From positions 1 through 64,000 of the forward strand of contig LVLI01000308.1 in NCBI GenBank assembly GCA_001687465.1: a stretch of 64,000 nt of DNA, read 5' to 3'. Each line of letters starts with the position of its first letter. Position 1 is the stretch's first letter. The stretch is from Halocafeteria seosinensis (lineage: Eukaryota > Sar > Bigyra > Bicosoecida). This document shows positions 21,767 to 64,000 of this stretch, piece after piece. The notes below the pieces were generated by a model. The model was not told the origin of the DNA, did not search any database, and worked only from the letters and a program-made list of their open reading frames with translations. A program made the translations under genes and the position numbers.

Positions 21767-24700
21767 ATGTTGTTTAGGTTTTTCTTGTTAAACCCGACAA
21801 TTTCACCAACAACGCGACTTTTGTTCACTCCTTCTAGCAGAAAGTCAACAAAGTCGTTCTTTATCCTTATATTGCTGGTTGCCTCATTTAGTGCTTTGGT
21901 AGGAGTTGAAGGGGTGACCGAACTAAATATAAGCACATGCTGCGAGTGCAAGAAAGAGTCAGATGGGAGCGATATTGATTGTGATGAAGTCGGGACTCCC
22001 AAGATTCTGATACATTGCAATTGCGATACTGGTGATAGTAATACGAACAGCATGTAAGTTCTAATTAGTTCAGTTGCATTTCAGGAGATTTTTTGCATGT
22101 CTATAGTGGTTCATGCTTTGTCTGTTACAGCGATTTTAGTGACCACAACCTAACTGCGATTGAGGAGAATGCTTTCGACGACATCCAATGTGATGGAAGT
22201 TCTTGTAACATAGAAGTGATGTATGTGCCGGTGCCGATGCAGGACCGACCAATTCCCGGTATTATTTAGTTTCATGATTGTGCCTGCTGCAGTCATCTTG
22301 AGGGTAACAGTCTAAGGACACTGCCTGACGATCTATTTAAGAAGTTGTTGGATTCGTTGGTCGAATTGTACGCTTATTGCGCCGTCCTCGTTTGTGGCTA
22401 TGACATTTTTACCATACACTGGCACCGCAGACGGCTAAATTCGAATAACTTGGAAAACATACCCAGGGATAGCTTTATTACAGACAGTGGTAATCTTCAA
22501 TGCTTCGACATTCTGTAAGTGTTGCTTGATTTTGATAACTAAAGACCCAGAATGTTCACAAGTTTTCCGTTGTTCAGCCATTTGGATGAAAACCCTGGAT
22601 ATGACCAATCAAACTGTGGACAATCCTTCACGGAATTTGAAGTGGTTGCTGAAACTGACAGTAGTGGTTGCACATCAGTAGAATTTTGTGCTTACGTAGC
22701 CACCCCAACTCCTTCTCCAACGGGCACACCAACCAGTTCTCAGTCCTCGACTGGGACGCCTTCCAACACAGGTACTCCCACGCAGACATCAACTCCTTCG
22801 TCCACAGTCACGCCTACTGGTTCCAGCACGTCAACTCCAAGTGAGACACCTACCACAAGCAACACAGGCACTCCTTCACAAACTGGAACTCCTTCCGTTA
22901 CTGGAACTCCGTCTCAGACTGGGACTCCGACTCCTTCGGAGACCATGACTGGCACACCGTCTGTAACGGCAACGTCCTCGGAGACTCCATCGACTACTAC
23001 GACTGCTACTATTTCTCCGGGGTTTCTCATACCCTGTAACTTTTTACTCGATTTGCCCCAGCATGAACCTAACCACGGGCGTGAGTGTAGTTTTGACGAC
23101 CGATTTCTGTTAGTACCTGAAGGTGAAAGCTGCTACTTGGAAGAGGGTGTGTATGAGACAGATATTATGTGTATTGCCGGCAATCTCACAATTCTAGGGA
23201 ATGCCACTATTCGGGCGCAACGCCATATGCATGTTCTGGAAGGGGGGATTATTGATGGGTTAGGCCGCGGACGGGAGGCAGGAACTTACGATCCTCTTTG
23301 TGCTCCTGTAATCTCTGATGAGTCATGTGGTGGAGGAAATGGAGGAGATGGAGCTGGCGGCTGCCATGAGGGATGCGGAGATTTTATGTATCCGCGTCAT
23401 CCTGGCAACGGTGGTTTTGGGAGTTCCGCTGGTGCCGGCGGAGCAGCGTTGACCCTCCAAGCTAATGAGACCGAGGAAACATTTATCCAGATCGATGGAG
23501 ACGTTACAATGGATGGTTCTGCTGCTCTCACTGGGAAGAGTGGTGGAGGTGCTGGAGGTTCTTTTCTTGCGATTACCTCTAGGTTCGAGGGAATGGGGAC
23601 AGTGAGTGCGAACGGAGGTGATGGTGGTCCGGATGATGGAAGTGGTGGAGGCGGTGGCGGTCGAATCTCTGTCTTTACCCTAGACTATCCCTTTTCCGGG
23701 GCTCTACGTGCACGTGGAGGAAATACAGGTGTTGCTGGTGCGCCGGGAACTATTTTCTTACAGAACATATCAATGTCAAGTTTGGCACTTGGAGTGCGGC
23801 ACGAAGGTACACCATCCGGGCTGTTTACCCGAATCGTTTCGGCTAGCGGGGGAGTGAGGTATATAGATCATATGTCGTTGGGGGAGGATGGAAGAGTGTC
23901 GTTTGACGATGCCTTGAATGAGGAGCCGTCTCATGTAGTAGTTGACGTGTTGACTTGGTTCCCTAATGAACCAGCGCTCGTTCGCGCTGGACGCAACAGT
24001 ACTGCAACGTTCCTAGCTGATGGTATTGGGGGAGAGTCCAGTTGCTTTAACGCCTCTAACCTAAGCCTCCTTATAGCAGAGGAAGGCTCTTGCTCACTAC
24101 CGGTGTGCGTTCTAGCTGACAACGTTGAATGGACCGTCAACGGAACCCTCAAAGGGGTGTCAGTGTTGAGTCTAGACACCAGTGATCTGTATCTATCCTC
24201 CTCGGGTCAAGCCTTTGCGAGTGATGGTGCCGCGGCACCGGGATATTATTTGTTTGAGGAGATACACAGTGCAGCATCAACTATTCATTCTTTATCTTCA
24301 GGCATTGTAGTGGAAGCAACGGAAGACATCGTGCACTTATCACATGCATCTAGAATCCTTTTCAATGGGATCCTTCGGATTATAGCAGCCGGTACCTTCA
24401 GACTTGATGATGGGAGTGAGGTGAATGGGGCAGGCACAGGAAAGAGCGCGTCGAAAGCAATTTCCGATTGCACGGTTGCCGTTTGGCCTCAGGGTGGCGC
24501 TTATGGGGGATTTGAGGGTAATGGTACTCATGGCTCCTGTGGTTCCCTTGTGTGGCCCGTTCTACCCGGCAATGGTGGTGCTGGTGTCGACGAGGGAGGA
24601 AGCGGGGGAGGTTCTCTCCAAATCGAAGCTTTTGAGGTGATAATTGACGGCATCCTAAATTCGAATGGAGACGAGGGTTTATCTGACGAGTCGGACTGTA

Positions 24701-27700
24701 CCTCATCTGGTAGCGGCGGATCCGGAGGAAGCATTTTGATACAGACGGAAAACCTCAGCGGCAGCGGATATATGTCTGTGAATGGAGGTGATTCGGCAGC
24801 TTGCCCGTCTTCCTTCGGGTTTGTTCCAGCTGCTGGTTCTGGCGGAAGAATCGCCGTTTATACAATGAATGATTCGTTTGCGGGAATGATGCGTTCGTTG
24901 GGTGGTCACTCCAGAGGTAGCAGTGGATTGCCTGCGGCGGGCGCCGCAGGCACAGTCTATATGGTCCTTGCCGACGATTCGGAGAGTTTCAACAAAGTAA
25001 CCTCTGTTCAGAACCCGCGAGAATGTAGCATTTGTAACATGACTATCCGCTTGACAATTGACAATGACCATCGCTTTACTTGGGATGCCGATACAGGAGT
25101 TGTCACAGACCTGAAGAATGCTCCTGGAAAGCACCTCTCATTTGATCGCTTGAGCATCATGGGAGGGGCCCATGTCTCTTTGGAATCCACCGGGATTAGA
25201 AAATCTTCCTTTGGAGTTGCTGAGCTCAGCGGAGATCGTACGGGAAGCATCTCTGTGCGTAACGTATCACAACTGGTCTTCACGGCTCCACGTCAGCGCT
25301 TCGAGCGTTTCACGACAAATATCACCCGAAAGTTTGCTGACGGAGTGTTCTCCCATACACTAACACAATCGCTGCTGATACTTGAGTCAGTACTTGATCT
25401 CAGTGAGGCTCCTATGATATTTGTCCGCTCTGGTGGTAGCATTCACTTTCCTGCCATGACAGTGTTTTCTAGGCCAGTATTAACCCTTGAAAGGGATACG
25501 ATCGTGGATTTTCAGGATGTGGTGTCTACGGGAAACTTCTCTTTGACTCTTGACCAGTTTAGTCGGAGCAGTAATCTAGGACAGGGTGAGTACTCCTTGG
25601 GTGAAGTGCAGCTGATGGACTACACTCGAATATATCTGAGCGAGGTCGAAAAAGTGAAGGCTACGTCTTGGGAAATGCTGGACTACACTACTGTTTTGTT
25701 CGACAACCATTTTTCTCCCTATTTGCAGCTGGATATCTTGCGATCCGTCAGTTTAAGCGAGAATGCCTCATTTCTTGGTATTGGAGGTGGTATGTTGAGC
25801 AATGAGAGCGAACCATTTGACTCTTGCGGAGACTCAACGCAACCGCAAGGATCGGGTGGCATTCATGCTGGGTTCGGTGGGAAATCACGTATAGATACCA
25901 CTGTTGCTTGCGGTCACTACGAGCGCCCGTCTAATAGAGGAAGCGGTGGAAGATCAATTGCTGACGCAAATGGAGGCGCCGGAGGTGGCAGTCTACTGCT
26001 TTTTGCCAATGGAACAAGAGGTTCATCTGTTGTGGTTGACGGGGTGTTGGATGTTAGTGGTGAGGACGGGCTGATTGCTTCAAGTGGTGATCATGGCAGC
26101 GGCGGAGGAGCAGGGGGTAGCTTATTCCTCGTTACCTATTTGCTGGGAGGAAGTGGCGTCATATCGGGAAACGGGGGAATAGGAGCAGAAGCCGACGCAA
26201 GCGGCGGAAGTGGCTCTGGAGGCCGAATATCACTAGTTGCCAGTGAACATTCAGCGTTCGAAGGGACTCTGGAAGCAATAGGAGGAGGAGGTGCACATCC
26301 TGGCGGCGCAGGAACAATTTACGCTGAAGTTAATTCTACGGAAACTGTCACAAGAACCCTCCTTCTAGATAATGGAGGTAAGACCCGGGCAGACATCGAT
26401 GAGCTGAGTAGCGTGTCTACTCTTGGTATTGCAGACTCGGTCGAGCTGACTATCGACAAAGTAGAAACAAAGGGTGGGTCTCATTTTGCGCCGTCGCTGC
26501 CTCGACACCCTTTAGATGTGATTAATGTGCTGGTTGGATCTTTCGACGGAGATGGGATAAGCCGGCTCTCTGTGTTCAACGGCTCTCAGATGTTTGTCTT
26601 CGGAGTCGACAAGGAGGGAGCCATTGATGGCCCTCTGTGGCCTGCAGAAGTAGAAATAGAAACAGGATCTGCATTTCGAACACTACGTCTGGAACGAAGT
26701 TTTGCTACATCTGGTCTTCACGTGGACGACCTGGATGTCTTTGTTGAGCGCGACGGGGCCCTTACTCTACCGGAAAATAGCACGTTCGAAGACAATTTCG
26801 TTGACATCAATGGGAAGATTTCTGGTACCACAAACCTTCATTTGGCTCATAATACTGTGTTGACGCTTGAAGGGTCTTCGTCGTATGGCTTTGGTGATGT
26901 GCTACTGACTGGAAATGCAACGCTAGTATTACATAATATCAGGAGTGTGAGCGCTCGCTCGTTCGACTTACGAGATCTCAGTACTATCAAAATTGTTAAC
27001 AATGAGTCAGAAGGCATAACGTTTGAGAGTGCCAAATTCTTCAAGGTGGGTGCAGGCGCAGCTGTTGTTGCTGATGGAGGTGGTATGGCTGCCGACACTG
27101 TGGATCCCAATTCAGACTGCGAGGCTGCATCCTCCGGCAATGTATACGCCACACGGGGTGCTGGAGGGTCACTTGCAGGTCGCGGTGGACTATCACTTAG
27201 TGGATCCTGTGGTATCTTCAACAATTCGGATCTTCGGGGCAGTGGAGGAGAGAGCATTTTTTCAGTCCGAGGAGGTCGGGGTGGTGGGTCTATATCCATT
27301 GTTGCTGGTTCTGCCGATGGTCTGGTTCAGGTCAACGGGGTAGTCTCATGCGAGGGAGAAGCAGGCTCTTCTAATGGCACGGTATCCAGCGGAGGAGGCA
27401 GCGGTGGTAGCATCGTTGTAGTGGCTCATAGAGTCATCGGTAGCGGTAACATGAGTGTCAGAGGTGGCGCCGGGGGTGGTGCAGGTGACGTTATTGGTGG
27501 CTCAGGTTCTGGTGGCCGAATTAGTGTTTACAGCAACATAACTGATTTCGAAGGAGAATTGATAGCGTTATCCGATGGAGTTCATCCTGCCTCTCCTGGG
27601 GTGATATTTGTCGAACAAGGGATACTTGGTACTGGGACCTTGACGACCTCTGGGCAATCTTGTACTAGCGACGATTGCTTACACGAAGTGTCTTTGGACA

Positions 27701-30700
27701 GCACGTCTTATTACGGAAGACCTATATCCACGATGAACGTTAGCGTCGCTCTGCTGAAGCTGTTACCTTCTGTGGAGGAGGATCTCTCTCCTTACGCCCT
27801 TGTAGCCACTGACACTGATGTGCGGCTATTGTGCGAAGATTGCTCTGCTTCCTCTTTCACAAGTTTGGAGTTAAGGGGCGTATCGACACTCAAGTTTGTC
27901 CCGACTTTAGACGAAATTCTGACTATGAGTCTTACTTTCTCTGATTTCATTGTGGTGGATGATGAAAGTGTAATCGATGTATCAGGGCAAGGATTCCTCA
28001 GCGAAGAGGCGGACGCGGAATGTGGCGTAAGCTCTGATGGTAGTGGTGGTAGCTATGGGGGCCAGGGGGGCGAATCCTCGCCGGCACCTTGCGGCAATCT
28101 GTCCCATCCTATCATAGCTGGTACAGGCGGCGGAGGTGGATTTAATGGAAAAGCAGGTGGTCGAGGTGGTGGCGCTCTAGTGTTGAACGGAAACTCTTCC
28201 ATGACACGTGTAACGCTGAACGGTCAGATCCTTGCTAATGGCGCTAATGGTACAGTTGTCAGCAATGCCTCGGAAGCCGGAGGGGGTGGAAGTGGGGGTA
28301 GCATATTGGTTCTCACTCACACTCTTCAGGGACACGGGAACTTCCACGTTGACGGGGGAAATGGTGTATCGAACAGTGGAATGCTCTTTGCTGGTTCTTC
28401 CGGAGGAGCTGGTGGCCGAATAGCTTTGTACTCAGATAATTCTGTAGACTTCTCTGGTAACGGTTCCAGCAAGGGAGGTAGCGGAGACGGCATCGACAAG
28501 ATTGGCACAGCGGGTACGGTCTTGCTTGCCTCTCGGAACTCCTCATGGGGTGGCTCCGTTGAGAATCAGCGCTTGTTTCGCCTAGAGGTTGATAACTCTC
28601 GAGCATCTTATGGGAGCAGTTTTCTTACTTTACTTCCGAATGATACTGTTGAGTATTTGTTCGACCAGCTGTATCTTGCAGGAGGGAGCAGATTTGGTAT
28701 CATGCCACCCGTTCGGCTACCGTATCAGCCAACCGGTATAGCTTTGACTCTTAGAGAATTCTCTGGAGATGGAAGTGGCCGTCTTGAAGTGGGGAAGGAT
28801 ATTGATATCAGTATTCTTGGACCCGACGATAGTAACGTAACCGCACATCACCCTTACACACGGATATCGACTGAAGGTTCCGAACGTTCATGGCGCCTGA
28901 GTCGCACTACAAGTAAATGGATTGCCCATTCATTTCAGTTAGACTTTGCTGATGTATTAGTAGAAGAAGAGGGGTCCCTGTTTTTGCCTCAAAATACTAC
29001 TTTGCTGCGGCATCGAATGGATATATTTGGTCATATCGGCAATTCCGAAAACTTGCGAATAGGGACCGGTGGTTGTGTAAAACTTTCGGGGAAAGGTGGT
29101 TTTGACCGAGATCATATAGGCACATACGTATTTGACGAGTTACTGCTGTACGGAGATGGGGAACTACATTTGGATGGCGTTCACAGTATCAATAGTTCGT
29201 CTGTGGAGCTAGAAGGTGGTACTTCAGTCGTCAGTGAGAACTGGGATACGTTTGGTGTCCAGATTTTTATCGATGAGTACTTCATTATTCGGGAGGGTGC
29301 AGAATGGAGTGCAATTGGATTTAATGAGTCGTTTGACCAGCTAATTGAAGACTGTTCACTGCCGTCTCCAGGAAGCGGTGGCACGTATGGTGGCACCGGT
29401 GGGCTAGCCAATGCTCCACCCTGTGGCGAATTTGATGCTCCGTTTAGATTAGGTGTACCAGGAGGCTCGGTTGGACGCAACGGTACACGCGGCGGTGGTG
29501 GAATCTTCATCTTGGGATTTGACGACGATACAGATCTTAGTATAGTCGTTGATGGAATAGTTGACGTGAGTGGGGAGGCTGAATCCCTGGATGGTCAATC
29601 AGGGGGTGGAAGTGGAGGAAGTGTCTACCTGTCCGGTAAGTCTGTATCCGGAAGTGGTGTGATTGAAGCATGCGGAGGGGACTCGCGAAGCTTTGGAGCG
29701 GGCAGCGGTGGAAGAATTGCCATTAGAGGCCGCGATAGCGTTTCTTTTGACGGTACCATATCGGCGTTTGGAGGGGACTCTCCTGTTGCACCAGGCTCTG
29801 CTGGTACTATACTAACTGAGATTACGGCAACCGGAACGGCGAAAGTAGTCATCGACAACAAAAATATCATATCCGCGAATAACAGCTTAACTGCTTTGAG
29901 TCGCTCGCTTCGCACCGAGTACAGCATATCTGAGCTAAGTTTGGTGAATAACTCCCGTTTGCAATGGAGTCTTCGTGAGTATGTTCCTTCGGTGCTCGTC
30001 AAGGGCTCTCTAACAGTTTCCTCTGGAAGCATTCTGGATGTTGAAGCGAATGGCGATTTTGTTGGTGAATTAGAGTTCACTGGAGACGTTTTCATTCGCT
30101 CTTCCCTGAACTTGCAGAACGTCAGTCGGGTAACCTCCCAAAGTTTGGAAATTTGTGGATCAAATGGGCGCGTTTTTGTGTCTTCACCTTCGTCAGTGCT
30201 CACACTTGAAGCCTCTGCCATGGTTAAAGTGTGCGAAAATGCTTCAATTGAAGGCACTGGAGGAGGCAGTAGTTTTAATGCTCTTGGCGACTGCTCCGTT
30301 AGTCCTCCTGGAATTGGGGGAAGTTACGGTGGACGTTCACTGAATGGAACCTCACCCTGCGGTGATTTCACTCTTGAGGAGGTAATCCCTGGTATTGGCG
30401 GAGGCTCTTATCCTATCGATGCTATGTCTAATGGCGGTCGAGGCGGGGCTGCTCTTCGAATCGTTGCGAATGTTACTGGTATGTCGACAGTTATTGTCGA
30501 CGGGAGCATAAACTTACAGGGTACCGGTGGGAACAATGGAGGAGGGAGTGGCTCAGGTGGTAGCCTTTCGGTCGATTGCGATATATTTACGGGAAGTGCA
30601 ACTGGCTTCATCACAGCAGAAGGAGGTGTAGGTCAGTTTTCGGGGGGAGCAGGAAGCGGAGGACGACTGGCGTTTTATGCAAAGAAGGAAAACAATTTCG

Positions 30701-33700
30701 AAGGGGCGGTTCGCAGTTATGGGGGTAATGACGAACATGGCATGCAAGCCGCTGCAGGAACAGTGTATTGGCATGTTGGCCCGCGCGATGTCTTTAACCA
30801 GTCTACCGTTATAGTTGACAACAACATTTTGTTCGATGCTCCGGACTTCGATGATCCTAGGTACACGTGGCTCTCTGGAACATGTTATCCCGTATTTTCA
30901 GTGAACGAGGTAATTGTGAGGAATTCAGGCAGACTCGAGTTCGGCGATTTGCTTGACATGGATTGTGAAAGTGATGTACTTCTTACTGGTTCTGTTTCGT
31001 TTTTGGACCACTCCCAAGGGAGATGGCTTTTGAACGGTACCAACGGTAGAAATAGGTTTGAACTGGAAGGAGACCTGCTAGTGTCATCAGAGTCGTCAAT
31101 CTTGCTTCATGATATGGACGTTTTCAGGGGTAACAACGCAACAATAAGCGACGATAGCCATGTGTTCATTTCCAATGTTGGAACCAGGGGAACTCGGTTT
31201 TCGTTTAACTCGGGCTTCAAGGTTGATTTGACGTCTTCCGTACGAGGCGACGGATTCGGCTTTCCAGGAGGCAGCTCTAACCGCATTGCAGGGTGCTCAC
31301 TTGGGTCAATGAAAGGAAGCGGGGGTAGTTTTGGAGGGCGCGGAGGCCGTGGAGGAAGTTTCGGATGCGGTGCTGTGGACGATACCTTCTTGAGAGGTAG
31401 TGGGGGACGCGATGGTTCTAATTCGGCCGTCTCGGGTGGTGCGGGAGGTAATGGTATCGGAATTTCTGTAGACCTCAGCAAGGGTGTAATGGAAATTGAT
31501 GGTGTCATTAGTATGGATGGTCTTAATGGATTGGACTCTGTTGGTGTTGCTGTGGCTGGAGGTGGTGGAAGTGGAGGGAGTATCACTCTTGTTGGTGCCT
31601 ACCTCCGAGGCTCTGGCCGCCTATCCTCGTCTGGTGGTGATGGAGGAGCAAACACTGATAACGTTGAGCTAAGTGGTGGAGGTGGAAGCGGAGGACGTGT
31701 ACATCTCCGCGTAGTTGATGCTGGAGATTTTAATGGACGTGTGGAAACGATTGGAGGATACGTTGATGCGGGCAATGCTCCTAGATTTCTTCTAGGCGCT
31801 GCGGGAACTTCCTTTTGGGAAACCGGGGAGATAATAGTCGGCAGTGTTGATTTGGATGAAGTCCCCGCAGGGGAGTATCGGAAGGTTGTGATAGACAACG
31901 GGGACCAAATAACTTTTCGTGTGGATGATTTTTCTGAAGAGGAATGGAATCCTTCCCGGTTAAGTTATCCGGAAGCCCAGTCGTATTCTTTGAATTCTAC
32001 AGTTATCAAAGGCACATCACGTCTGTTCATAGATGCATCAGCAAGTGGAGTCTTGGTCGGCCGAGACATTACAGTTGAGAACGGGTCTCGTTTGGATATT
32101 ACAGGCTCTCCGGACTTTGCTATCGGTAACATTTCAATTACGGGGGAGCTTACGTTCCACCCAACGAGCTCTGCCTCTTTGAGAGATGTACGCAGTGTGA
32201 GTGTAGGATCAATGACTATCGGGAAGGGCTCTATCGTTCGAGCTTTGAACCACCACTCACCGGGTTTGGAAGTGTTCACGACGGATACTTTCCGATTGGA
32301 CCAAGAGGCGGTCCTTGATGGTAGTGGTGGTGGTGTGATGGAGGATATAAGATTTATCGGTGATTGTAATGTGTTAGATAACTCCAGTGCTGGGGCAAGC
32401 TATGGGGGAGTAGGCGGTGGAGCTGCGGCGGTGCCATGTGGGCGTTTCGACAGTGCTTTGCTTCGTGGAATCCGGGGCGGATCAACGGGCCTGAGCAAAG
32501 GTGGAGCCGGCGGCAATCACATATCCATTACAGTGGAAACAGCCGTAGTCAACGGAAATATTAACGTGAATGGATACCCGGGTCAGGAAGATGCCACTGG
32601 AGGGAGTGGTGGTGGCAGTGGAGGGAGTGTAGTTTTGGATGCTTGGGAGATTTCAGGGTCTGGTAAGGTTCTTGCTGATGGAGGTGGTAGTGGCGGATGT
32701 AGTGAGGGATCTTGCGAGCTTGAGGCCGGTAGTGGCAGTGGTGGACGTATTGTTTTAAAATCCGCGATTCTGAGTGACAGTTTTGCCAGTTCTGCGGTGG
32801 GTGGAAGCACAGGCATTCCTGGAAGCGCCGGTACACTGATGTATTGTAGTTTGCCGTCCTGCAGCAATCGCAGAACTATTATCAACAATTCTGATAATAA
32901 GGCGCCCGGTCATACTGCACTTTCAGGGCAACGCGACTCCTCATACTCAGTCGGGCAGTTGAGCGTTTCGCACGGCAAGCTACGAATTGAGCCTCCAAGG
33001 GGTGGCGCTCGTCTTGTAGGTAGCGTAGATGTGCACTCCCGAGGAAATCTGGAGCTAACGAGTGAAAGGCAAGTAGACATAGATGGGGAGTTCGATATCA
33101 CCGAATCTTTAACTGTTGACGGCACTGGCAGTGTAGTCATACTGCGGGAAATCGTATCGCTCGCTGTTGGATCTTCTATTGGTATAACGGAAGGAGCTGT
33201 AGGCACTTTTTCGAATCATCGCTCTTCCGGATTAACTGTCTCAGCAAACGATTCTATAACTGTAGACGGTATGAGTTTCGTGAGTGGAGATGGAGGAGGG
33301 TTCATGGCTGGCCTCGCCGATGGCAATGCCGGATGCGGTTCTGCTTCAGATGGTAGTGGAGGCAGTCATGGAGGCTCATCGGCCAATGGTCCTCGTCCTT
33401 GTGGATCGTTTGATAACCCATTGCTCCGAGGCTCCGGTGGTGCTGGCGTGGGTTCAAATGGACTTGGGGGCGCAGGAGGCGGGGCATTAGTCTTGAACTC
33501 TTCAGTGGGAATACACGTGGAGGGAAACATCACGTGCGATGGAAATGATTCCCTACTAAGCGGTGGAGGGGGTGCTGGTGGAAGTATCCTTGTCAAGTGC
33601 AATAGCTTGTCGGGCAGTGGCGTCCTCAGTGCCAACGGTGGTATAGGACAAGAAAGTGGTTCTGCTGGGGGTGGTGGTCGCATTGGAATAATCACAAGTG

Positions 33701-45700: not shown

Positions 45701-48700
45701 GAGCATCGGGCAACATTACTGGTGGCTTCGGAGGTGGTTCCTTGTCCATTACATCAAGGAAGGACGACGAAATAATATCGCTATTGGAAGTAGATGGGTC
45801 CATTACGTGTGATGGACAGAGTGGGAGCAATAGTTCGTTTGGTGCCGGAGGTGGTGGTGCCGGGGGCACTGTTTTTATCTCAACGTCCATGGTTACGGGG
45901 AGTGGAATTATTTCTGCCGCTGGTGGAGATGCTGGTGCTGGGGCCGTCGCTGGTGGTGGTGGTGGTGGTAGAATTGCGCTGCACACAGATACCCGTCACT
46001 ATCATGGGTCATTGAATGTCCGAGGCGGTATGGGCGTAGAATCCGGTGGCACGGGAACTGTCTTCAAAACCGGATTTCTGTCTGATGAAAACGATGAGCT
46101 TATATTCAATGGAATGACGGGGTCCGGTACTCGCTCTGTGTTTACCAGAAGTATTGCGGATCTTTTGCACCTTAGTAGAATATCAGTACAGAACAATGCT
46201 GTCTTGTATGTAGATGTTCCCTTACGAGACAACAGTTTGGTACTGAGATCGTTAAGGGTAGTCAATGATTCCACACTGGTGTTTCGTCGGCAGACGGAAA
46301 ATGCAGAAGGAATCCGAGTGAAGCTAAACGGTAGTCTGCATGTTTCTCGTGCATCTAAGGTCTCACTGGAAGAAGTTACTTCTCTAGAGTCTTACAGTGT
46401 TACTATCAGTGACTCAAGCTCGATTATCTTCCGAAATGACCTGACGGAGGGTTTGCACTTATTTGCTGAACAGGATTTGCGCCTGGATTCGTCGTCTGTA
46501 TTGGAAGGTGTACCTACATCCCGCCAGTTTTTACCGGAGACTATATGTGCATCGCCAATGCGCTCTGAAGTAAATGCGGCCTGCAATCAAATTGGTGGAA
46601 GTCATGGCGGTGTCGGTGGTTGCTCGCGAATAGCTTTCGGTTCGCCGTACCGGCCTGTTTCTCAAGGTCAAGGCTCAAGCAATGCTAGCTCCCAAAGCGG
46701 TGGCCGCGGCGGGAATGCATTTAAGGCGAGCGTGCATAGAACAGTCGTCAACGGAGTCTTGAAGTGTACCGGAGAGCCGTCGCAGACGTTCGGAGGTGGA
46801 GCCGGTGGCTCCATATGGATTGAGGCAGAGTCTATAATGGGTACTGGCGTTATAAGTGTCCAAGGTGGCGATGCGTCTAGTATCTTTGGTGCTAGCGGTG
46901 CTGGTGGCAGAATATCTCTGAATGCAAACACCCGTTTACCTCTGTCTCGCCTAATTACTAGCGGTGGGTCAGGAACTTATCCGGGAGCTGGCGGTACCGT
47001 CTTTGTGTCTCGTCGAGATCTCTCGAACGGAGTTGTACATGTTGCCGAGACCGTGGCGACTGAGTCTGAAGTGTGTGCGGAGGCGTTTACATTAGTTACT
47101 GCGCCAGAGTTTGATATTGAGGCGAAAGTGAACGTTCAAGGTTCCCCAGTCGTGCGAATTGTAAGCAGCCCTTGTCTTCCAGGCTTTCTGTCTGATGTGG
47201 CTTCTCACGGATCCTCGCAACTCATATGGACGTCGGATTCCGAAGATGCCCACGATTCATTCCTTCATGCGGGGTCGGTATCTCTTTCGGGTAACTCGTC
47301 TCTAAGGCTTCTTGAAATGTCATTCTTCCGTATAGAGCAACTTGCCCTATCCGATTCCTCGCTTCTCGAGTTTCGTGGGGTTAGGAAAGAGTTGTTTGAC
47401 CTTCAGGTGAACATTCTGAGAATTTCTCGTGGCAGTCGCATCCTCGGAGGGGGAAGAAGTTACAAGAGCCCCACCTTCCCGAAAATCTCTGATTGCATTT
47501 ACGAACCTGTGGAAAAGGCTGGAGGCTCCTATGGAGGCTATGGAGGCAACTCGCCGAACACGCCCTGCGGTTCCTTCATTGAGCCGACCATTCCTGGCAC
47601 CCCGATATCCGATAGCAAGGATATTCCAGTTGGAGGCATGGCTTTAGTGATATTTGGAGTTGGGCCCCACATCGAATACCAAGTGGATGGTTTGATAACC
47701 GTTGCTGGGGAAAGTGCCTTCCCAGGAGGCGCTTTTGGTGGCGGATCAGGGGGAAGTCTGTTACTAAACTCAACTCGATTGTCTGGGAAGGGAGCTATCA
47801 GCGCTGATGGCGGTGACTCCAATGAGCCGTTATCCGGAGGTGGGTCTGGTGGACGTGTTTCCATCCTTACGCACAACCTTACTGACTATAGTGGGAACAT
47901 CACTGCACACGGAGGGGCTGCCGAATCCCCTGGAGCTCCGGGGACGATTTATTATCAACTCTCTCAAAATGATGCTTTGTTTGCGGAGGCTTTGACGTCG
48001 CCCATGGTGATAAGCAATTCCACAAGGCGCGCCGAGAATTTCCTGGTGATTGATCAACCGTGTCCTGAGGGCGTATGTTCAGAGTCAACTCCAGCAACCT
48101 GGTTGAATTCCCCGTCCTCAGAGATAAAGGCTGAGCTTCTCGTTAAAGGAGGCGCATGGGTGCAAATCGGAAATTCCTCCAGAGAACTTATGTGTGATGA
48201 AATCATCGTCAATGGATCAGTCTTTGTTAGCGGGTATAGCACACTGTCGTTAGGTTCTTCAGCTGTGGATGGTGAATTCCCTGCGTACCGGATAACAGAT
48301 GGAATGAGTGTTTCGGAAACCGCCCAGGTAGTGCTGACTAAACTTCACCGGCTGCGTGTCTCGGATTTGTTCTTGACAGATACCAGTACCCTGTTCATCG
48401 AGAATGGGAACATACCTACCTTCCTCCTTGTGAATAATGCTGCTGAAATCGGGCTTAGTGCTGTTATGAGTTCAATCGGATATGGAGCAGGAGAAGCCGA
48501 GTTCGGTGAAGGCTGCGTCGCCGGTATTCCAGGAGACTTCGTTGAAGGGACTGGAGGTAGTTTTGGAGGTGCACCTTGTGGGAGCCCGACGTGGCCAACC
48601 ATCCGCGGTAGTGGTGGCGGAAGTACACATAACGGTACTGTCTCTGGGGGCACTGGGGGGGGTCAGATTGTGTTTGCTGTGAATGGCTCGGATACCTCCC

Positions 48701-51700
48701 GGTTGGTGGTTCACGGAAGCATTTCCGCTGATGGGATTAGTGGAGGTAGCGGAACCTTTGGTGGCGGCGGGGGCAGTGGCGGTAGCATCATTGTTGTCAC
48801 GCCGAATATTAGTGGATCTAAATCGGCGTCTATAACCGCAAACGGCGGAGACGGAGGGATAGGTACTGTTAAGAATGGGCGAGGAGGATCAGGGGGACGA
48901 ATGGCTGTGTATGTCGATTCCCTGGCTGGGTTCGAAGGGAGGTTTAGTTCTGCAGGGGGATTTTCGAACTCTGGTCCTGGGGTCTCCGGTACAAAGTTCT
49001 TTAACGTTAAAAGCTTGATCGGTGCTCCGCAGAGTGTAAGCGACTTCCAGTCCACCAGTGGTCGTCATGTGTCCTCCTGGGTAACCGTTAGCGATCCATC
49101 TCGGCAAGCTTCTAATGCGGAGCGGCATACTTGGTTGGGAAAGCCGACCCGTGGTTTCGCTATTGACCTTGTACATTTGGAGCAAAATGCTTCTGTCGTA
49201 GCAACAGAACCACAATGGACGCTTGAGAGAAACCCAGTGGTAACACTGCGCTCGGTGATGCTGGAGGATGAAGCATCGTTCATTCTCCAACCGTTCTGGA
49301 GAGGTGACTCGCGGAACATTTCGTTCCATTTCGAGGGAGACTTGCAGGCATTTGACGATTCGTCTATACATCTCGATAATATCCGCACATGGAAGGTCGA
49401 TAGTGCCATGTTAGACGATCAGAGTTTCATTCGAGTTACTGGAGATCCGCATCTTCCATTCCTTATGAATGTGACCCGAAACCTGCGAATTGAACGCGTA
49501 GCCCGCATAGATGCCTCCGGAACTGGACATATGAGCAATTTAGCTGCGCGCGCGGAGGGTTGCGCCCCTGTTGCCCCTCAATCCGAGGCCGGAGCAGGCG
49601 GGAGCTACGGGGGCTTTGGTGGTTTGTCACTTGGGATGCCGTGCGGAGACTTTCGTGCTCCGACGGTCTTTGGTAGTGGGGGCGGCAGTGGTAACAGAGG
49701 TAATGCTGAGGGTGGGACAGGTGGGGGAGCGCTTCGAATAACTGTGAAAGGAAGTGCAAACATAGATGGCAACATTACTGTGAATGGGCTGTCGGGCGAA
49801 GCAAGCGCTTATGGTGGTGGCGGTGGAAGTGGAGGGAGTATCATCCTTCAAGCTGTCTCTATCGAAGGACAAGGCCTAATAAACGCTAATGGTGGCAGTG
49901 GTGGTGAAGGCCTCCGACGAGACGGTGCTGGGGGATCCGCGGGTAGAATCGCACTCTTTACGCAGAGAGTCTCTCCAGAATTGGGTGTAGTTGCACACGG
50001 AGGGACTGGGTCAGCCAATGGAGCTGCTGGTACCGTGTTTTTCTCGGATGAATTTTACGCTACCAATGCAACCAGGAAGTTGTTCGTAGACAATATGGGT
50101 ATTGACAGTCCAAGCACCACGCTCCTAGAAATATCGTCAACGGGTGGCGTTGTTAGTGTTGAGCAGATGTCAATATTTGGTTACGCCAGTGCCGTCATTG
50201 CACCTGCCGCGGACAGTAGCTTACTTGTGCTAGGTAGTTTTGTCGGTGACGGCTCCGGGGAAGTATCAGTAAACAGAGGTATCACAGTTGCAGTCGCAAC
50301 GCATGCTTTACAAAGGGATCCCAGCGACAGACGTATAAGTTTTGGGAACGGAATATTTAGTTCAGTGGCGTATATGTCTTCAAACTATGCCCTGGAGAAT
50401 CTCAAGCTTACCGTAGAAGATGGATCCTCGATGCTATTCCCCGATGAGCTCAGTATGCGGAAATCAATGATGATAGTCGATGGGATTATTAGGGGGATGT
50501 ATCAACCCTCCATCGGGGCCCAGGCGTCACTGGTTTGTTCGGACAGGGGATCCGTGAACAGCGTCATAGGAGGGGTGTATAACTTTTCTGCGGTGACAGT
50601 ATTTGGCTATGGGTCGCTTGGGTTCGTTGGTGTATCTGAAGTATTCGTCGACCGGCTGTTCGTGTTTTCTACTGCAATGATGCGTGTGGAGCACTCTAGC
50701 CGTGCTCCTACCCGGATCATGGTTACCAAGAGAGTCTCTATCTCCGCAGGGGGTGTACTAAATGCTTCAGCCGGGGCAGACATCGAGGCACTTGCAGCTG
50801 ATAATCTTATATCCTCTGGAGGTACACACGCGGCTATCGGTGGAGCTTCAAGCGCTCCCGCTTTTGGTGATGCTTTCATGCCCCTTGCTCAAGGAGGTAA
50901 TGCGTTTAATGCTACGAAGTCTACAGGCAGAGGTGGTGGGGCGATACACATCAGGGGGATAGGCATGGCAACGTTGCTTGTTGACGGTCAAATTGTTGCA
51001 GACGGGTCAGTTGGTATAGATGACGTGGGGGGTGGAGCTGGAGGATCAGTGCTGTTGGAGCTGGCGTCGGTGTCAGGAGCTGGTTCTGTGTCTGCCAACG
51101 GGGGTTCTGCTGAAGACGCCGGTGCAGGGTCCGGGGGCCGTATTGCACTTTTAACCTCACAAAATGCGTTCGCTGGCTCTCTTACTGCATTCGCTGGTGC
51201 GGCGGCGAGTGGCAGGCGAAGTGGAGCAGGTACTGTGTATATTGAAGCGTTGAACGCGACAGAATACCGAAAGATGGCAGTGGTCTCGGATGAGTTTTCA
51301 GAAGCTGATACTTACGTATTTTTGAATACTCATGTATGGAGGCGCTTTGATGTTTTAGAGACAAAAAATGGCGGTTNTCTGCTTTTCGCATCAAACGATC
51401 CGTTTGGACGGGACTTTGTAATCTCCGTGGATGAATTGGATGGAGATATGAGTGGTAGTGTGAAAGTATCGTCCGATGTGACCCTCGCAGTGGAGGATAA
51501 AGACTCAACGAGACAGAGGAACTCTTCTGCAATCACTCGCTTGGATAGTACGTCAACGCACACAATTGTATATCAAGAAGAAGTTGTGGCTTTCAATCGG
51601 CGAATAAACTCGACAAATATCTTCGTCGGTGCAAACGCGACGCTGACATTACCGAAAGTTTTGCACCTGTGTAACGTCACCGTTGAGAGCGACGGGGTAG

Positions 51701-54700
51701 TGGAAGGGGTCCATGAGTTGGTCGCTTGCGAAAGCGCCACGTTCGAGGGTAATATTTTCGGATGCACGCTACCTTCTGCAGAAAACTTCAATCCCTTAGC
51801 AAATGTCGACGACGAAACATGCGGTCCTAGTCTTCCTCAAGGCTGCACCTATCCAATAGCGGTGAATTTTGATCCAAGCGCTAAAGGGAATGACGGCTCA
51901 TGCTTGCTAGCATCTAACCATAGATTGGGTTGTACTTGTCCAACATCGCGCAATTTTGATCTCGCGGCGACATTGGACGATGGTAACTGCGTCCCTTTAA
52001 CAACCGGTTGTACATATCAAAATGCAAACGTAAGTTTCATCGGTGTGTTTTGTGTGTGTGTGATCTGTAAAGTGTATCTATTGTCTACCTCGCAGAACTT
52101 TGAGCTTTTTGCGGAGAGAGATGACGGTAGCTGTGAATTCTTGGGCGCAAATGCCTCCACTGTGAGTTTGGCAGCTCATAGATCCGTCGTGCTTGATTTT
52201 GAACAATTCCGGGAACGAGCCGACCTTCGGAGACGCATTGCTGCTGAACTGACAAATGAAACCAATGTTCTCCTTGCACGAGATCCTGGATTTGTTCCCG
52301 ATGAAGGTATAGAATGTGACTTCGAGGAAGCCTGTATTTCAGGTTTTTGCGAGAACGGATACTGTGCTTCTCCATCGTGTTCTGATGGTATCCTCAATTT
52401 TGCCTTTGAGACCGATATAGATTGTGGCGGTGCTCTTTGTCCCGAACAATGCTCTCCGGGCAATCAGTGCCTGATTGATAGGGATTGTGCTTTCAACGGA
52501 TCTTGTGAAAACTCAACTTGCAAGGTAGGATTTGGCTTCCCTTGTCACTTCGATTCGCACTGTCTCTCGGAACATTGCGATCCCGATCCTCTAACATGTA
52601 CATACATTAAGAGCTGCTTCGATGCGGTGCATAATGGAAACGAAACCGATGTTGATTGCGGTGGTATCGATTGTGCTCCGTGCCCTATTGGAAAGGACTG
52701 CATGTTTGACACGGATTGTCTCAGCGGAGAGTGCTTATTCGGCACTTGCGTCCAAGCTACTCCGACTCCAACCCCAACTTCATCTGTAACTGCCACCCCT
52801 TCGGTGACTGCTTCGACTACTACTACGGCAACTGTCGGTACTTCTCCAACTCCAACCTCCAGCGTGACTCCCACTCTCACTCCTAGTGGGACCCCTTCAA
52901 GGACACCGGGGGCTACTATCAAGCTATCATTTTTCGCCCCCAAATTCCCTGCCTTCCACAATGGTATTTCAGGATCCTCTCCGTTTATTGTCATGGCAAT
53001 TTTTAATGTGGAAATAACTAACCCGGAACTGGGTCCAGATGATTTTGATTCTACGTGCATAGATATATTCGATGACACTTGGATCGAAGTCAGAGCCAAC
53101 CTAACGTTTTCTTTCACCGCGCAAATTCAGAAGGACTGCCCTCGTGATGCCACCCTTACCCTACCGAGATTCGCAGCCGGCTCCACGCATGATGTTTCAG
53201 ATGTGTTGAGGTCGCGCTTTACGGGGGAGATATCTCCATCCCCAACCCCTACGGCATCTGTCACTGCCAACTCTACTACGACACCAACTGTTTCTCCGAC
53301 TCCGACTTCGTCCATGACCCCGTTGGAAGTGAATCTGGTCGCCATAGGAAACTCCCAAAGTGCACCGTTGAATGCTGATCCTCTGTCTTTCGTTCTTACA
53401 TCAAACTATGAATTGGTGAACCTCAATCCATCTTCGTTTAAGGTAAGCGTAGATGGCTCCTCGACTGGTGAAGAACGAGTATCGCAGGTCTTACCAATGC
53501 AAAGCGAGAACACCTGGCTTGTGAAGCTTGATCATCTAGAAGCAGGCATCGTAATACTAACGCTACCAGCTTCTTCAGTTGAGGATACTCGAGGTCTCAC
53601 GTTGACGAAGGATGTTACAGCCTCAGCCTGGTACAATGCTGTGAATCCGCAAATTCAGCTATTCGCTCCAATCGGTGAGAACGAGGGATGGAAGGATCAG
53701 ATCTTCGATGTGATACTCAACGTATCTAAACCCGTCAAACTCACAGTGGATTCAGTCAAGCGTGACTTCCCTGGGCGGTTTCTAGACCACAACGATCCTG
53801 CTTTTGATTTCCAGAATGCAGAACTATCATGGATTGCTCCTCTGCTCTCCACTTCGTCAGGGGCAACGTATGCGGATGGCTCTCCTGTCGTTTTCGATAG
53901 TGTGTCCCTTAGAAAAACTGTGTCATCTCCATTTCCGGACGGGACTATGTTCCACGTACGGGCGGACGTGTCTCAGCAAAGGGAAGGTCCCGTTTCTTTG
54001 AAGTTTCTTCCGCCGCTTTTCTCGGATGTATCGGGGAATCGATTAGCTGAAAGCAAAACGTTTGAGTTCATCAGGGACGTTGAAGGACCTCGGATAAATG
54101 CAACGTTACACTCCATTGAATTTCCGTTGATCAAGATCGTATTGTCAGGTCATGAACCAATGAAGTTTACGAACGGAACTGCTGTAGAATACCGTGGTTG
54201 CGATGAAGGTGACACTTGCTCGCAAGATTCTATCATTGATATGCAGGGCTACGATGAGCTTGCCCCACTCCCCATAAGGAACCAGCATATCTTGGAAGCG
54301 GACGTTAGTGAAAGGCCCAACGACTACAGCATGGGCGTGTTTATTGTTGGTGGAGTCTTACAAGATCGCTTCGAAAACCCCAGTGAGCAATCATCTTTCC
54401 CCGGTATGTTGAATCTGGAGAAGTGGCCGCTATCCTTCTTTGGTAACGAGGGTGGATTCTCGAGCTACGTAGTCTTTACCGTCGCGCTAGGGCGTACCAC
54501 GCTCGACGATCTCGCTGCTCCGACCCTGGGACAGGTGGTTGATATTACTGCTTCTGGAAGTGTGTTGCTTTCCCGAGGTCGATTAGCAGTAAAAGATCTT
54601 ACTGAGCGTGCCAGCAAGCTCCATCCTACTTCCACAATTACGTTTGTTCACCGCGATGTTTCCGTTTCTTCCCTCAGGCAACTTGACGAGGTCAGCGAAG

Positions 54701-55290
54701 TACCGCTTGAAGAGAAGACCAAATCCAATATTGAAACAAGGCTTCTCAGGGATCTTCGCGCCTTCCTTCCGACTCAACTCACCGCAGCGGGTATCGCCAA
54801 TGGTAGTGATCTGGTGACGGTGGAGGATGTGATGGCCGTAGGGTTTCCGGACGCTATTCCACCTGCGGCTGCCACCAAAGAAACAGCCAGCACCAGTATG
54901 GTTGCATCTACTTCTGCCCTTGGTGCCGCGCTACTCTTTGTCATAGCTGCGGCTCTAGCTATGTATGTCATACGGAAAAAGAGGGCGTCGAAATTGCGAC
55001 AGAATTATTTTACTCAGGATAATTTAGCGTTTGACCGGCCAGGTATAGCTGGAAAGGTGACCAGAGTGATCGACGACACCGTCCCTGTGAGCGATAATAA
55101 AGATCACGGGAGCGCTCTAAAGGATGATATCAGCGAAGAATCCGATGAAGCTGCGGAAAGGGATGTATATGATGAAGATTTCGAATGCAATCTGCGCGAA
55201 GAGGTTTCTGAAGAAGAGGAAGAGGCGGAAGGCGTACCGGAAGTGAAGACGTCGGACAAAAACCATGCTAGAGTCCGTCCCTTGGAGTAA
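21767..55290 (+). CDS. giant modular surface protein, about 11,060 residues
   Basis: Proposed exons: 21767-22053, 22131-22220, 22293-22367, 22431-22514, 22578-52029 and 52096-55290; all joins keep the frame. An earlier in-frame ATG at 21653 would add 38 residues. I chose 21767 because it puts the hydrophobic core (SFFILILLVASFSALVG) nearer the N-terminus. Order: signal peptide, Cys-rich cap, leucine-rich repeats, Thr/Pro/Ser stalk, about 27 Gly-rich units (residues ~330-9900), four DDGSC-type motifs, ETD.DCGG Cys modules, PT-rich linkers, Ig-like domains, one transmembrane helix (about 10938-10958) and an acidic cytoplasmic tail of about 100 residues. Sequons NxS/T are numerous. I do not recognise a named family for the whole. 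A long extracellular adhesin or coat protein is the likely role (inference). Ns at 34485 and 51377 leave two residues unknown. A paralogue lies tail to tail at 60381. Confidence 0.88.
22131..22620 (+). other. leucine-rich repeat exons, one repeat per exon
   Basis: Exons 22131-22220, 22293-22367 and 22431-22514 and the start of the exon at 22578 each begin with the same repeat position: IDFSDHNLTAIEENAF, IHLEGNSLRTLPDDLF, LRLNSNNLENIPRDSF and LHLDENPGYDQSN. All the introns between them are phase 2 and 62-77 nt long. Such symmetrical exons can be duplicated or skipped without changing the frame. In the protein this forms a small LRR cap beyond the stalk, a usual protein-binding module. Confidence 0.85.
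22700..23022 (+). repeat. Thr/Pro/Ser-rich stalk
   Basis: About 107 codons made almost only of Thr, Pro, Ser and Gly, with repeated TPS, GTPS and TPT triplets (for example SQTGTPSVTGTPSQTGTP). Such stretches are usually heavily O-glycosylated and extended. Similar short PT-rich linkers recur at 52756-52905 and 53235-53320 and in the paralogue. Confidence 0.9.
30240..45500 (+). repeat. three-unit higher-order repeat inside the array
   Basis: Units 7, 10, 13, 16 and 19 (type A) share an (R/N/S)S.NG..PCG turn in place of GGxGG, mostly GKGFAAGEA-like lead-ins, and a following VDNNGL.TGDV.D.R(Y/F)T segment. Units 9, 12, 15 and 18 (type C) share a following NADxxDxxxxxLTG segment. Units 8, 11, 14, 17 and 20 (type B) have longer spacers at the same place. 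First-Cys distances between A units are 3042, 3039, 3102 and 2889 bp. This period-3 order points to amplification of a block of three units, about five times. Confidence 0.75.
35062..35268 (+). repeat. three tandem 69-bp repeats inside the giant exon
   Basis: Copies at 35062-35130, 35131-35199 and 35200-35268 encode 23-residue units of the pattern EGSVTVGHRSTMNIVNVSEF plus HSI. They are far more alike in DNA than the large units, so this expansion is recent. It lies in the strand-rich part between units 11 and 12, and explains why that spacing (1137 bp) is 138 bp longer than expected. Confidence 0.92.
51760..52140 (+). other. four DDGSC-type Cys motifs with an in-frame 66-nt intron
   Basis: Four successive motifs of the form GCT...A.NF(D/N)P.A..DD.(S/T)C: GCTLPSAENFNPLANVDDET, GCTYPIAVNFDPSAK, GCTCPTSRNFDLAATLDDGN and GCTYQNAN + NFELFAERDDGSC. 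The last is split by an intron, 52030-52095, with donor GTAAGT and acceptor CGCAG. The intron is 66 nt and has no stop, so the frame looks uninterrupted. The paralogue has an intron at exactly this point (63561-63630, 70 nt). Known: this short motif is widespread in extracellular proteins of algae, other protists and marine bacteria. Confidence 0.88.
52300..54860 (+). other. juxtamembrane extracellular region: DCGG modules and Ig-like domains
   Basis: After a helical segment, two Cys modules of the form C.DG..N..ETD.DCGG..C...C..G..C....DC (near 52378-52510 and 52615-52750) are followed by PT-rich linkers. Three or four beta-rich domains come next. Segments such as VSLKFLPPLFSDVSGNRLAE resemble the ending of bacterial-type Ig-like domains (D..GN pattern). 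A last, helical part (SNIETRLLRDLRAFLP) comes before the membrane helix. All have counterparts in the paralogue. Confidence 0.7.
54904..55290 (+). other. transmembrane helix and acidic cytoplasmic tail
   Basis: The helix LGAALLFVIAAALAMYVI is followed by RKKR, the usual positive-inside stop-transfer. The tail of about 100 residues contains RVIDDTVPV and many Glu/Asp runs (EEEEEAEG). The paralogue has RIIDDTVLV at the same distance from the membrane and then AL.D...EE. This shared short motif is a candidate binding site for a cytoplasmic partner. Confidence 0.85.
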
Positions 55291-57682: not shown

Positions 57683-57763
57683 ACTCAAAGGCTCCTCGTT
57701 AAGAGGATGTGGTCAACTTCCCGGCCGGTGGGCTATCTGTCACATTTGTGTGTGTACTCAAAG
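57683..57763 (+). mobile_element. 65-bp repeat copy with 8-bp target-site duplication
   Basis: Bases 57691-57755 are identical to 200-264. The copy is bracketed by actcaaag at 57683-57690 and 57756-57763 (9 bp if the last T of the element is counted). Identity over 65 bases more than 57 kb apart, with a duplication at the ends, shows recent movement. Confidence 0.82.
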
Positions 57764-63300: not shown

Positions 63301-64000
63301 GTGCCATCAGTACAAGATGGACGGCTACAACTACCATTTAGACACATCCCAGAAATGCACGAAGCATTCCACTCACAGACCTGAGTAGCGTCTGGTACAT
63401 AGTCCGGACTACGCCCGAGGAGAGTGTTCGTCTGATTTACTTGCACAGCAGCAAGCGTGGATAGTTCCTCTATCTGAAGTCTCAAACTGGGGACCAAAGT
63501 GTTATTTGTCCCCTCGAAGACGCAACTACCGTCATCTACTTGTGCTTGTGGATTGTAATTCTGCGAGGTATTTCAACATAAATAAAATGACAGTAACGTA
63601 TACCTCGCTAGAAACTGCAGCGGGACGTACCTTTGCCAAAGGGTATGTGCAACCAGTTTGGAACATCTCGCAAGTTCCGTCATCCAATGTAGCGTCTGGA
63701 TCGTAGTTTTGCGACGTGGGGCAAGTACATCCTACGACGTGGCCGGACGGCAGTATACAGGTGCCATCGTTAGATCGTGCTCTTGGGTCATAGTTCACAG
63801 CGATTGGATAAGTACATCCTCTTGGTAAAAGAAAATCGCAAGAGCGATCATTGACCGTGGCTAAGGGGTTAAAATTTATCGCAGTCAAATTCGTGCAGCC
63901 ATGAATATCACCGATGAATTTGGAAGCGTTGCACTTGATAAGGTTTGATACTCCCGAAACGGTTCCATTGCTGATGATGCCCACGTTGCACAAGTACACA
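60381..64000 (-). CDS. second giant surface protein paralogue, C-terminal part (runs off window)
   Basis: Two exons are visible: 64000-63631 (continues beyond the window) and 63560-60381, at least 1182 residues. The 70-nt intron, 63630-63561 (GTACGT...CGCAG), stands at the same point inside the fourth DDGSC-type motif as in the plus-strand gene. The order is the same: end of a Gly-rich unit (YLCNVGIISNGTV, matching HLCNVTVESDGVV), four GCT...DDG.C motifs, a helical segment, DCGG modules, a PT-rich linker, Ig-like domains, a transmembrane helix (FFSLGAFAFLLICILVWLCYYW) and an acidic tail of about 130 residues with RIIDDTVLV and Ser/Glu runs. The upstream part is likely a repeat array too, but that lies outside the window. 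The two genes are convergent, about 5 kb apart. Confidence 0.9.

Follow-up and report, generated by a model that had tools for sequence, protein, structure and literature searches.

A 29.5-kb coding exon in Halocafeteria seosinensis and the putative giant membrane-anchored rod protein that it encodes

The DNA analysed here (the window) comprises the first 64,000 nucleotides of contig LVLI01000308.1 from the bicosoecid Halocafeteria seosinensis (assembly GCA_001687465.1). Its main feature is a giant gene on the forward strand, named gene A in this work. The stop-to-stop frame at 22543..55290 contains 10,915 codons with a single terminal stop and two codons with a single-base ambiguity; by our own estimate, a frame of this length would arise by chance with a probability of about 1e-227 at about 3/64 stops per codon. 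The six-exon model of gene A includes five GT-AG introns of 63-77 nt each and encodes a protein of 11,056 residues (1.128 MDa), in agreement with the approximately 11,060 residues and 1.1 MDa given in the first-pass annotation of this sequence. The 29.5-kb coding exon which that annotation had placed at 22578-52029 lies inside the open frame and contains zero stops, and the open stretch reaches 55290, since the 66-nt intron 52030-52095 stays in frame. The acceptor of exon 5 follows either 22577 or 22550, and both variants preserve the frame. The following features were distinguished in the window:

21767..22053, plus strand: exon 1, start codon (ATG at 21767) and hydrophobic stretch (putative signal peptide); donor GTAAGT at 22054
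22131..22514 (22131-22220, 22293-22355, 22431-22514), plus strand: exons 2-4, short leucine-rich repeat (LRR) region; frame kept across GT-AG introns, LRR_8 below cut-off, PDB LRR chains matched
22578..52029, plus strand: giant exon 5, 29,452 nt, by open frame and splice model
22702..23016, plus strand: distal mucin-like Thr/Ser/Pro linker, by translation
23200..51240, plus strand: 27 Gly-rich units with a mean spacing of about 350 residues, by iterative hidden Markov model (HMM), alignment and AlphaFold2 prediction of two neighbours
35062..35271, plus strand: recent in-frame triplication of 69 nt (23 residues) inside unit 12, by repeat search
51760..52140, plus strand: GCT..NFD..DDGSC Cys modules, the last one split by intron 52030-52095, by translation
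52030..52095, plus strand: intron of 66 nt, in frame by chance; position matches the intron in paralogs B and C
52096..55290, plus strand: exon 6, with the Cys module end, Cys-rich region, mucin-like linker, juxtamembrane region, membrane helix, tail and stop, by splice model
52315..52755, plus strand: Cys-rich ETD.DCGG region, by alignment; matches to Dumpy DPY sub-threshold only
52906..54888, plus strand: juxtamembrane ectodomain; all-beta stretch at about 53386-53625 modelled at pLDDT 65-85, remainder poorly
54916..54972, plus strand: single membrane-spanning helix (core), top hydropathy peak of the protein (2.54 at residue 10792)
54976..55287, plus strand: cytoplasmic tail with a conserved R.IDD[TA] ... 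AL motif at 55063-55128
60381..63560, minus strand: last exon of paralog B (Cys-rich, mucin-like, juxtamembrane, membrane helix, tail), convergent to gene A, by comparison and alignment
63631..64000, minus strand: paralog B, 3' end of the array exon and Cys modules within the window; frame continues to the contig end at C220:81387

A search of the genome (30.6 Mb in 605 contigs) with one Gly-rich unit as a query gave 78 matches, including single ones on contigs C419 and C463. The minus-strand frame at 60381-63572 (1,063 residues), attributed to paralog B, showed identities of 39% with the C-terminal part of gene A and of 41% with another copy, the third, located on contig C126. This paralog continues past the window via a 5,951-codon frame, which remains open once its 70-nt intron is removed; the last intron of gene A occupies the equivalent position in paralog B and in paralog C of contig C126. 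Contig C126 carries frames of 7,277, 3,158 and 2,316 codons, the latter two cut by contig ends, and contig C108 carries a frame of about 4,670 codons that is also cut by a contig end. The C108 frame was treated as a separate gene end, because its DNA identity is only 72-73% to C126_1 (in two stretches) and 71% to C126_3 (in one). In total, three distinct C-terminal ends (A, B and C) and three distinct N-terminal ends (A, C108 and C126_1) were found, therefore the genome contains at least three giant genes. The C-terminal ends of B and C consist of the array, Cys modules, a mucin-like stretch, a membrane helix and a tail, and the N-terminal ends on C108 and C126_1 consist of a leader, a mucin-like stretch and the array. 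No paralog was found whole on a single contig, and more than one solution fits when the contig halves of B and C are joined by unit numbers.

In five family comparisons, made to see whether the frames are coding, the differences were concentrated at codon position 3, with 0.58-0.72 there and 0.22-0.41 at position 2. At codon positions 1/2/3 they amounted to 0.27/0.22/0.58 between C108 and C126_1 (726 codons) and to 0.52/0.41/0.72 between gene A and C126_2 (5,491 codons).

Two further observations were made on these contigs. A region of about 3.2 kb without a 300-codon frame (C126:36301-39542) separates units 10 and 11 of the C126 array; it carries an inverted AT-rich repeat, is possibly a mobile-element insertion, and is followed by a frame (17 units) that opens with its own signal-peptide-like stretch. 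A smaller protein on C463 (L047:1860-6998) carries two units together with ephrin-receptor-like Cys repeats and a mucin-like stretch. A membrane helix was recognised in it by eye, with a long portion following this helix, and the protein shows the Gly-rich unit in another surface-protein context.

The iterative HMM produced 28 matches in gene A. After removal of a 69-residue partial match overlapping its neighbour, 27 units were left, the number previously estimated. Of the unit alignment columns, 16 are invariant, with Gly in 15 and Arg in one, and a pair of Cys residues is kept in at least 90% of the units. Similarity between units of gene A is highest at a three-unit spacing (0/2000 shuffles), and this peak exceeds the maximum over lags 1-9 in all shuffles. 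The same peak was observed in C126_2 (0/2000) and paralog B (1/2000), where it lies above the 95% point over lags 1-9 and below the shuffle maximum. Judging by this periodicity, the array apparently expanded in blocks of three units. Unit 12 comprises 379 residues in gene A, compared with 321-322 for the partner units of C and B, and its triplication fits the copying of a single 23-residue solenoid coil.

In order to compare unit order, the paralog units were scored against all 27 units of gene A, row and column means were corrected and the best ordered chain was fitted. C126_1 matched units 1-5 of gene A in order (5/5). The chain of C126_2 corresponds to units 11-27 and that of paralog B to units 8-16 and then 20-27, so that B is without three units (17-19) by this chain; in both cases the chain partner was the single best one for 14 of the 17 units. 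The chain score was reached in none of 2000 unit shuffles for C126_2 or for B, in 20/2000 for the short C126_1 and in 84/2000 for C126_3. The best partners of C126_3 (8, 9, 7, 5, 6, 7, 8, 9, 10) indicate an internal duplication, apparently common to C108. Since the paralog units align in order with those of gene A, the array order predates the gene duplication.

Misassembly or repeat collapse of the array is unlikely because the copies are divergent at the DNA level: the 26 other units of gene A are 24-39% identical to the reference unit, and a repeat search with 12-base seeds found just five repeat families of 39-72 nt in the frame. In addition, paralog B and a second contig show the same order of units. 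The assembly error considered in the first-pass annotation is thus disfavoured, as judged from the assembled sequence, and sequencing reads should map uniquely across the array.

Pfam scans of the array and the following region revealed no family at E<=1 over 22570-34000, a single chance-level row (allene oxide cyclase, E 0.19) at E<=1 over 34000-45000 and no family at E<=0.1 over 45001-55290. NCBIfam likewise gave no family on the array piece scanned. A PDB sequence search with a 1,500-residue array query yielded no match at E<=1, and a search with the two-unit profile returned only three insignificant rows (E 0.08-0.87).

The structure of two neighbouring units was predicted using AlphaFold2 from an alignment of 25 unit pairs derived from the window, as had been suggested earlier, and a beta-solenoid model with a pLDDT of 91.3 and a pTM of 0.89 was obtained. 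Foldseek found no PDB chain at E<=1e-3 with this model. VIA-align, which was run on Foldseek's own match list, gave the scores of 15.9 for EtpA, 15.4 for HMW1, 14.4 for Awp1, 13.4 for IcsA and 11.2 for Fap2, and after these adhesins many beta-helix enzymes and tailspikes followed with scores of 8-10. The top-scoring rows are confined to a single unit (model residues 1-370), and rows over both units have a large root-mean-square deviation. The two units are thereby predicted to form a beta-solenoid whose nearest solved shapes are bacterial and yeast adhesin rods; we take it to be right-handed, from the handedness of its structural matches. Of the 323 fold-match rows at E<=1e-3, four were viral; they came from a phage, an algal virus and two giant viruses, and none had a TM-score above 0.28. 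With 22-23 residues assumed per coil, a unit would contain about 15-16 coils, and at 0.48 nm per coil the stack of 27 units would be no longer than about 200 nm. The protein contains 139 N-glycosylation sequons versus 86.9 in shuffles (s.d. 8.4, 200 shuffles), and the rod is probably glycosylated.

The N-terminal hydrophobic leader was read as a signal peptide by eye. The LRRs reported in the first-pass annotation are retained in part: the 5' exons are LRR-like and match PDB LRR chains (best 4.2e-10), and Pfam LRR_8 (E 3.8e-4) is under the curated cut-off. We infer that these exons belong to gene A. By eye, the N-terminal ends at C126:6801-9000 and C108:65501-69000 have a signal-peptide-like leader directly before the mucin stretch and no LRR, and the LRR part may be peculiar to the gene A copy. 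A mucin-like stalk is also present, although not as had been described, since the main mucin-like stretch is distal, between the LRR region and the rod, and a shorter one is found near the membrane.

At the C-terminal end, the Cys modules, the single membrane helix and the acidic tail of the earlier description were all recovered. The Cys-rich region is highly conserved across the C-terminal parts aligned, and these parts of the gene A family showed no Pfam family beyond sub-threshold matches. Ig-like domains, which had been proposed between the Cys modules and the membrane helix, were not confirmed: there is no Pfam support above the threshold, and the C-terminal model, built from a two-sequence alignment, has a mean pLDDT of 44. 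The strongest hydropathy peak occurs at the matching place in the last exon of B and in the C126_2 frame (C). A second helix candidate at residue 9830 was rejected, as this peak stems from the 66-nt intron, which the spliced protein lacks. The tail contains 29 D/E versus 17 K/R residues. In its motif, R, IDD and AL are identical in 6/6 sequences; invariant columns make up 20% of the 30-column motif stretch, 8.6% of the whole tail and 17% of the ectodomain, and because of this last value the motif is conspicuous only against the rest of the tail. From the sequence, gene A is best read as a real single gene encoding a type I single-pass surface protein.

Relatives of the unit were found in other organisms. 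A query of four complete units and a partial fifth one identified 473 proteins among the 7,999 best-sharing candidates; most of the 120 matches listed are unnamed, and the named ones belong to Planctomycetota or Verrucomicrobiota. A whole-giant query identified 19 proteins of 5,565-7,661 residues, seven of them from animals (Potamilus, Saccoglossus, Actinostola, Owenia, Mactra, Mya and Amphiura), some of which are named Tenascin-X or TENX-like. The unit profile matched 49/49 relatives (19/19 from the whole-giant search and the first 30 of the 120 listed, which were picked as matches, so that this is expected) versus 0/196 shuffled or reversed versions, so that composition does not explain the matches. 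With the full-period profile, the match takes in the linker as well and reaches a maximum of 322 of the 331 positions in animal proteins and of 321 in certain other relatives.

The animal giants, such as the Tenascin-X of Potamilus, the TENX-like protein of Mya and LOC100369350 of Saccoglossus, contain the same unit as gene A, and every one of the seven records (5,706-7,530 residues) has 11-18 matches to it. Unlike gene A, some of them carry PF00754 and PF07974, which we take to be discoidin and EGF domains. Three of these records look cut at their ends by eye, and no membrane end or shared C-terminal part was found there. No Pfam domain is listed for P0123, therefore its tenascin name is unsupported. 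Bacterial relatives (Planctomycetota, Verrucomicrobiota, Thermoanaerobaculia and others) also share the Gly-rich unit; the 30 records scanned, most of which are unnamed, have 6-8 matches apiece. The Pfam scan of bacterial P0001, P0003 and P0020 showed no LRR, and two of these proteins have other domains such as CarboxypepD_reg or dockerin.

The C-terminal part of paralog B was related to 73 proteins among 8,000 candidates. Three unnamed metagenomic proteins, P0142-P0144, cover 89-92% of this part and share the C-terminal order with the gene A family; the other 70 cover 10-19%. P0144 (70% identical to gene A) and P0143 (48%) group with A, and P0142 groups with C, which suggests that the A/C split is older than the split of these lineages. 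In this search, with candidates limited by length, no animal protein covering the full length of the query was listed, and the only animal rows were those of Adineta, with 13-17% coverage. A viral contig scan with the unit and a genome contig scan with the C-terminal part confirmed no viral or prokaryotic DNA relatives, these being weak scans with single divergent proteins as queries. The statement that no named family has the whole domain order holds as regards Pfam and the array. The gene A product is not a lone protein, given the two further C-terminal ends in the genome and the three metagenomic proteins.

On balance, we are inclined to consider the gene A product a membrane-anchored rod for surface contact or adhesion. 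In this scheme, the 27 units would form stacked beta-solenoids, giving a rod no longer than about 200 nm, aided by Gly stacking and the Cys pair. The rod would keep the LRR tip, which sits on a mucin-like hinge, at a distance from the cell, and the Cys-rich and juxtamembrane region would join it to the single membrane helix. The conserved tail motif could couple the rod to the cell interior. Judging by fold and anatomy, the protein may act in contact with prey, partner cells or a substrate, and paralogs B and C would do a similar job with other tips.

It is rather unlikely that the rods instead form a structural or barrier coat, packed into a glycocalyx, scale or hair-like appendage layer where no specific binding is needed. 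Their length, the excess of glycosylation sequons, the mucin-like stretches and the co-existence of at least three paralogs agree with such a coat, and MUC16, a membrane mucin of similar reach (250-300 nm), forms a barrier according to the available part of its description (PMC4072602). However, the array is modelled as a folded solenoid, unlike mucin repeats, and the LRR tip together with the conserved tail motif suggests recognition and coupling.

We find it improbable that the rod captures or processes a polysaccharide matrix through units that would be beta-helix glycan enzymes, either active or degenerate. The array has no Pfam match to a glycan enzyme or Beta_helix (at E<=1 for 22570-45000 and E<=0.1 beyond), the top structural rows are adhesin secretion domains, and the invariant unit positions are 15 Gly and one Arg. 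That gene A is real coding DNA but not one protein in life, being transcribed as or cut into several products, with LRR exons from another gene, is likewise improbable, for while the N-terminal ends on C108 and C126_1 seemingly lack the LRR and the 17-unit frame of C126 starts with its own signal-peptide-like stretch after the 3.2-kb gap, the 29.5-kb exon has no stop, unit order is conserved among the paralogs and no second signal-peptide-like start was seen by eye beside the mucin stretch of gene A.

Returning to the contact rod, we suggest tentatively, and with somewhat less assurance than for the rod itself, that gene A represents a class of eukaryotic beta-solenoid rods, anchored in the membrane, that is old and has so far not been described. 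Its arrays would have grown by three-unit blocks, with the order frozen before the paralogs and the metagenome-sampled lineages split, the conserved tail would couple a rod of about 200 nm to the inside, and the unit would be a domain family without a Pfam hit, common to animals, bacteria and H. seosinensis. No description of the Gly-rich unit family was found in the literature by titles and abstract openings, which does not prove its absence. The repeat unit of the animal giants with tenascin-like annotations is also that of a protist family and of bacterial proteins, and no Pfam model matched the array in the scans described above. The order-frozen arrays with a three-unit period would be a clear record of how a megadalton repeat protein grew and then halted. 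The predicted rod with its conserved tail offers a candidate, open to testing, for cell contact over long distances in a cadherin-rich unicellular eukaryote.

The genome search revealed 45 cadherin matches, of which 33 exceed the cut-off, as well as one SH2 match and no chlorophyll-binding match (0). Seven cadherin matches are located in one frame of 8,524 codons on C250, which represents another giant surface gene. Very long coding exons seem to be a habit of this genome, because this frame exists besides the gene A family. The cadherins would suggest a choanoflagellate origin, but the single SH2 match speaks against it, choanoflagellates being rich in SH2 domains. Oomycetes also have cadherins, as stated in the accessible part of PMC2926784, so the counts would be compatible with a heterotrophic stramenopile.

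Elsewhere in the window, a SIR2-family frame (Pfam E 4.8e-27) was found at 12180-13142, and a 1,270-codon frame on the minus strand (7822-11634) showed no significant Pfam family and matched only its own place in the genome search. The window also contains an identical 65-bp pair (200-264 and 57691-57755) and an inverted 111-bp pair with 86% identity (14173-14283 and 59162-59272). The segment 58694-59324 is 88% identical over 638 bp to C126:12319-12946, downstream of the paralog C stop.

Among known systems, the beta-solenoid adhesins HMW1, EtpA, IcsA and Fap2 resemble the predicted fold of the gene A units, with no significant PDB sequence match. Bacterial beta-solenoid adhesins are secreted via bacterial outer-membrane systems. 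Gene A shares the beta-solenoid rod with the two-partner secretion (TPS) and autotransporter adhesins, according to the predicted two-unit model, and no Pfam row for TPS or autotransporter secretion features was found in it. Unlike these adhesins, it is spliced and has a leader-like start and a C-terminal membrane helix. Tenascin-X is composed of EGF, FN3 and fibrinogen domains, none of which was found in gene A in the Pfam scans described above, and these gave no cadherin row either. As to LRR surface receptors, the observations are the PDB LRR chains and the LRR_8 match below the cut-off, in exons putatively assigned to gene A. Membrane mucins of the MUC16 kind and gene A are alike in the single membrane helix and short tail; the array is most of the ectodomain, and with 16% Gly and 6.4% Thr the latter is not mainly Ser/Thr repeats, and no SEA row appeared in the Pfam scans. 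Dumpy is built of EGF/DPY repeats; DPY was detected only sub-threshold in two of the six C-terminal parts, and no zona pellucida row was found at E<=1.

As regards size, gene A is not a record among single-pass surface proteins, contrary to the suggestion that it would be among the largest. In the available parts of the sources, the MUC16 ectodomain has about 22,000 residues (PMC4072602) and Dumpy 2.5 MDa (PMC7266619), both about twice the size of gene A. Both are giant surface glycoproteins, as is predicted for gene A; MUC16 is membrane-anchored, with mucin repeats and SEA modules, and Dumpy belongs to the matrix and has a zona pellucida domain (PMC4072602, PMC7266619, as far as these parts describe them). 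Giant1-5 of Apilactobacillus kunkeei are encoded by consecutive giant surface-protein genes (3,000-8,000 residues), and Giant1-4 have beta-solenoid parts, as given in the accessible part of PMC12863079. Compared by description, they resemble the gene A family in the apparent clustering of giant surface genes and differ in being bacterial and in having an N-terminal solenoid (PMC12863079). Long repeat-built surface proteins are thus already known from MUC16, Dumpy and Giant1-5 (PMC4072602, PMC7266619, PMC12863079, in the parts available), and what appears new to us in gene A is its building block, the fixed order of its units and the eukaryotic membrane-anchored form.

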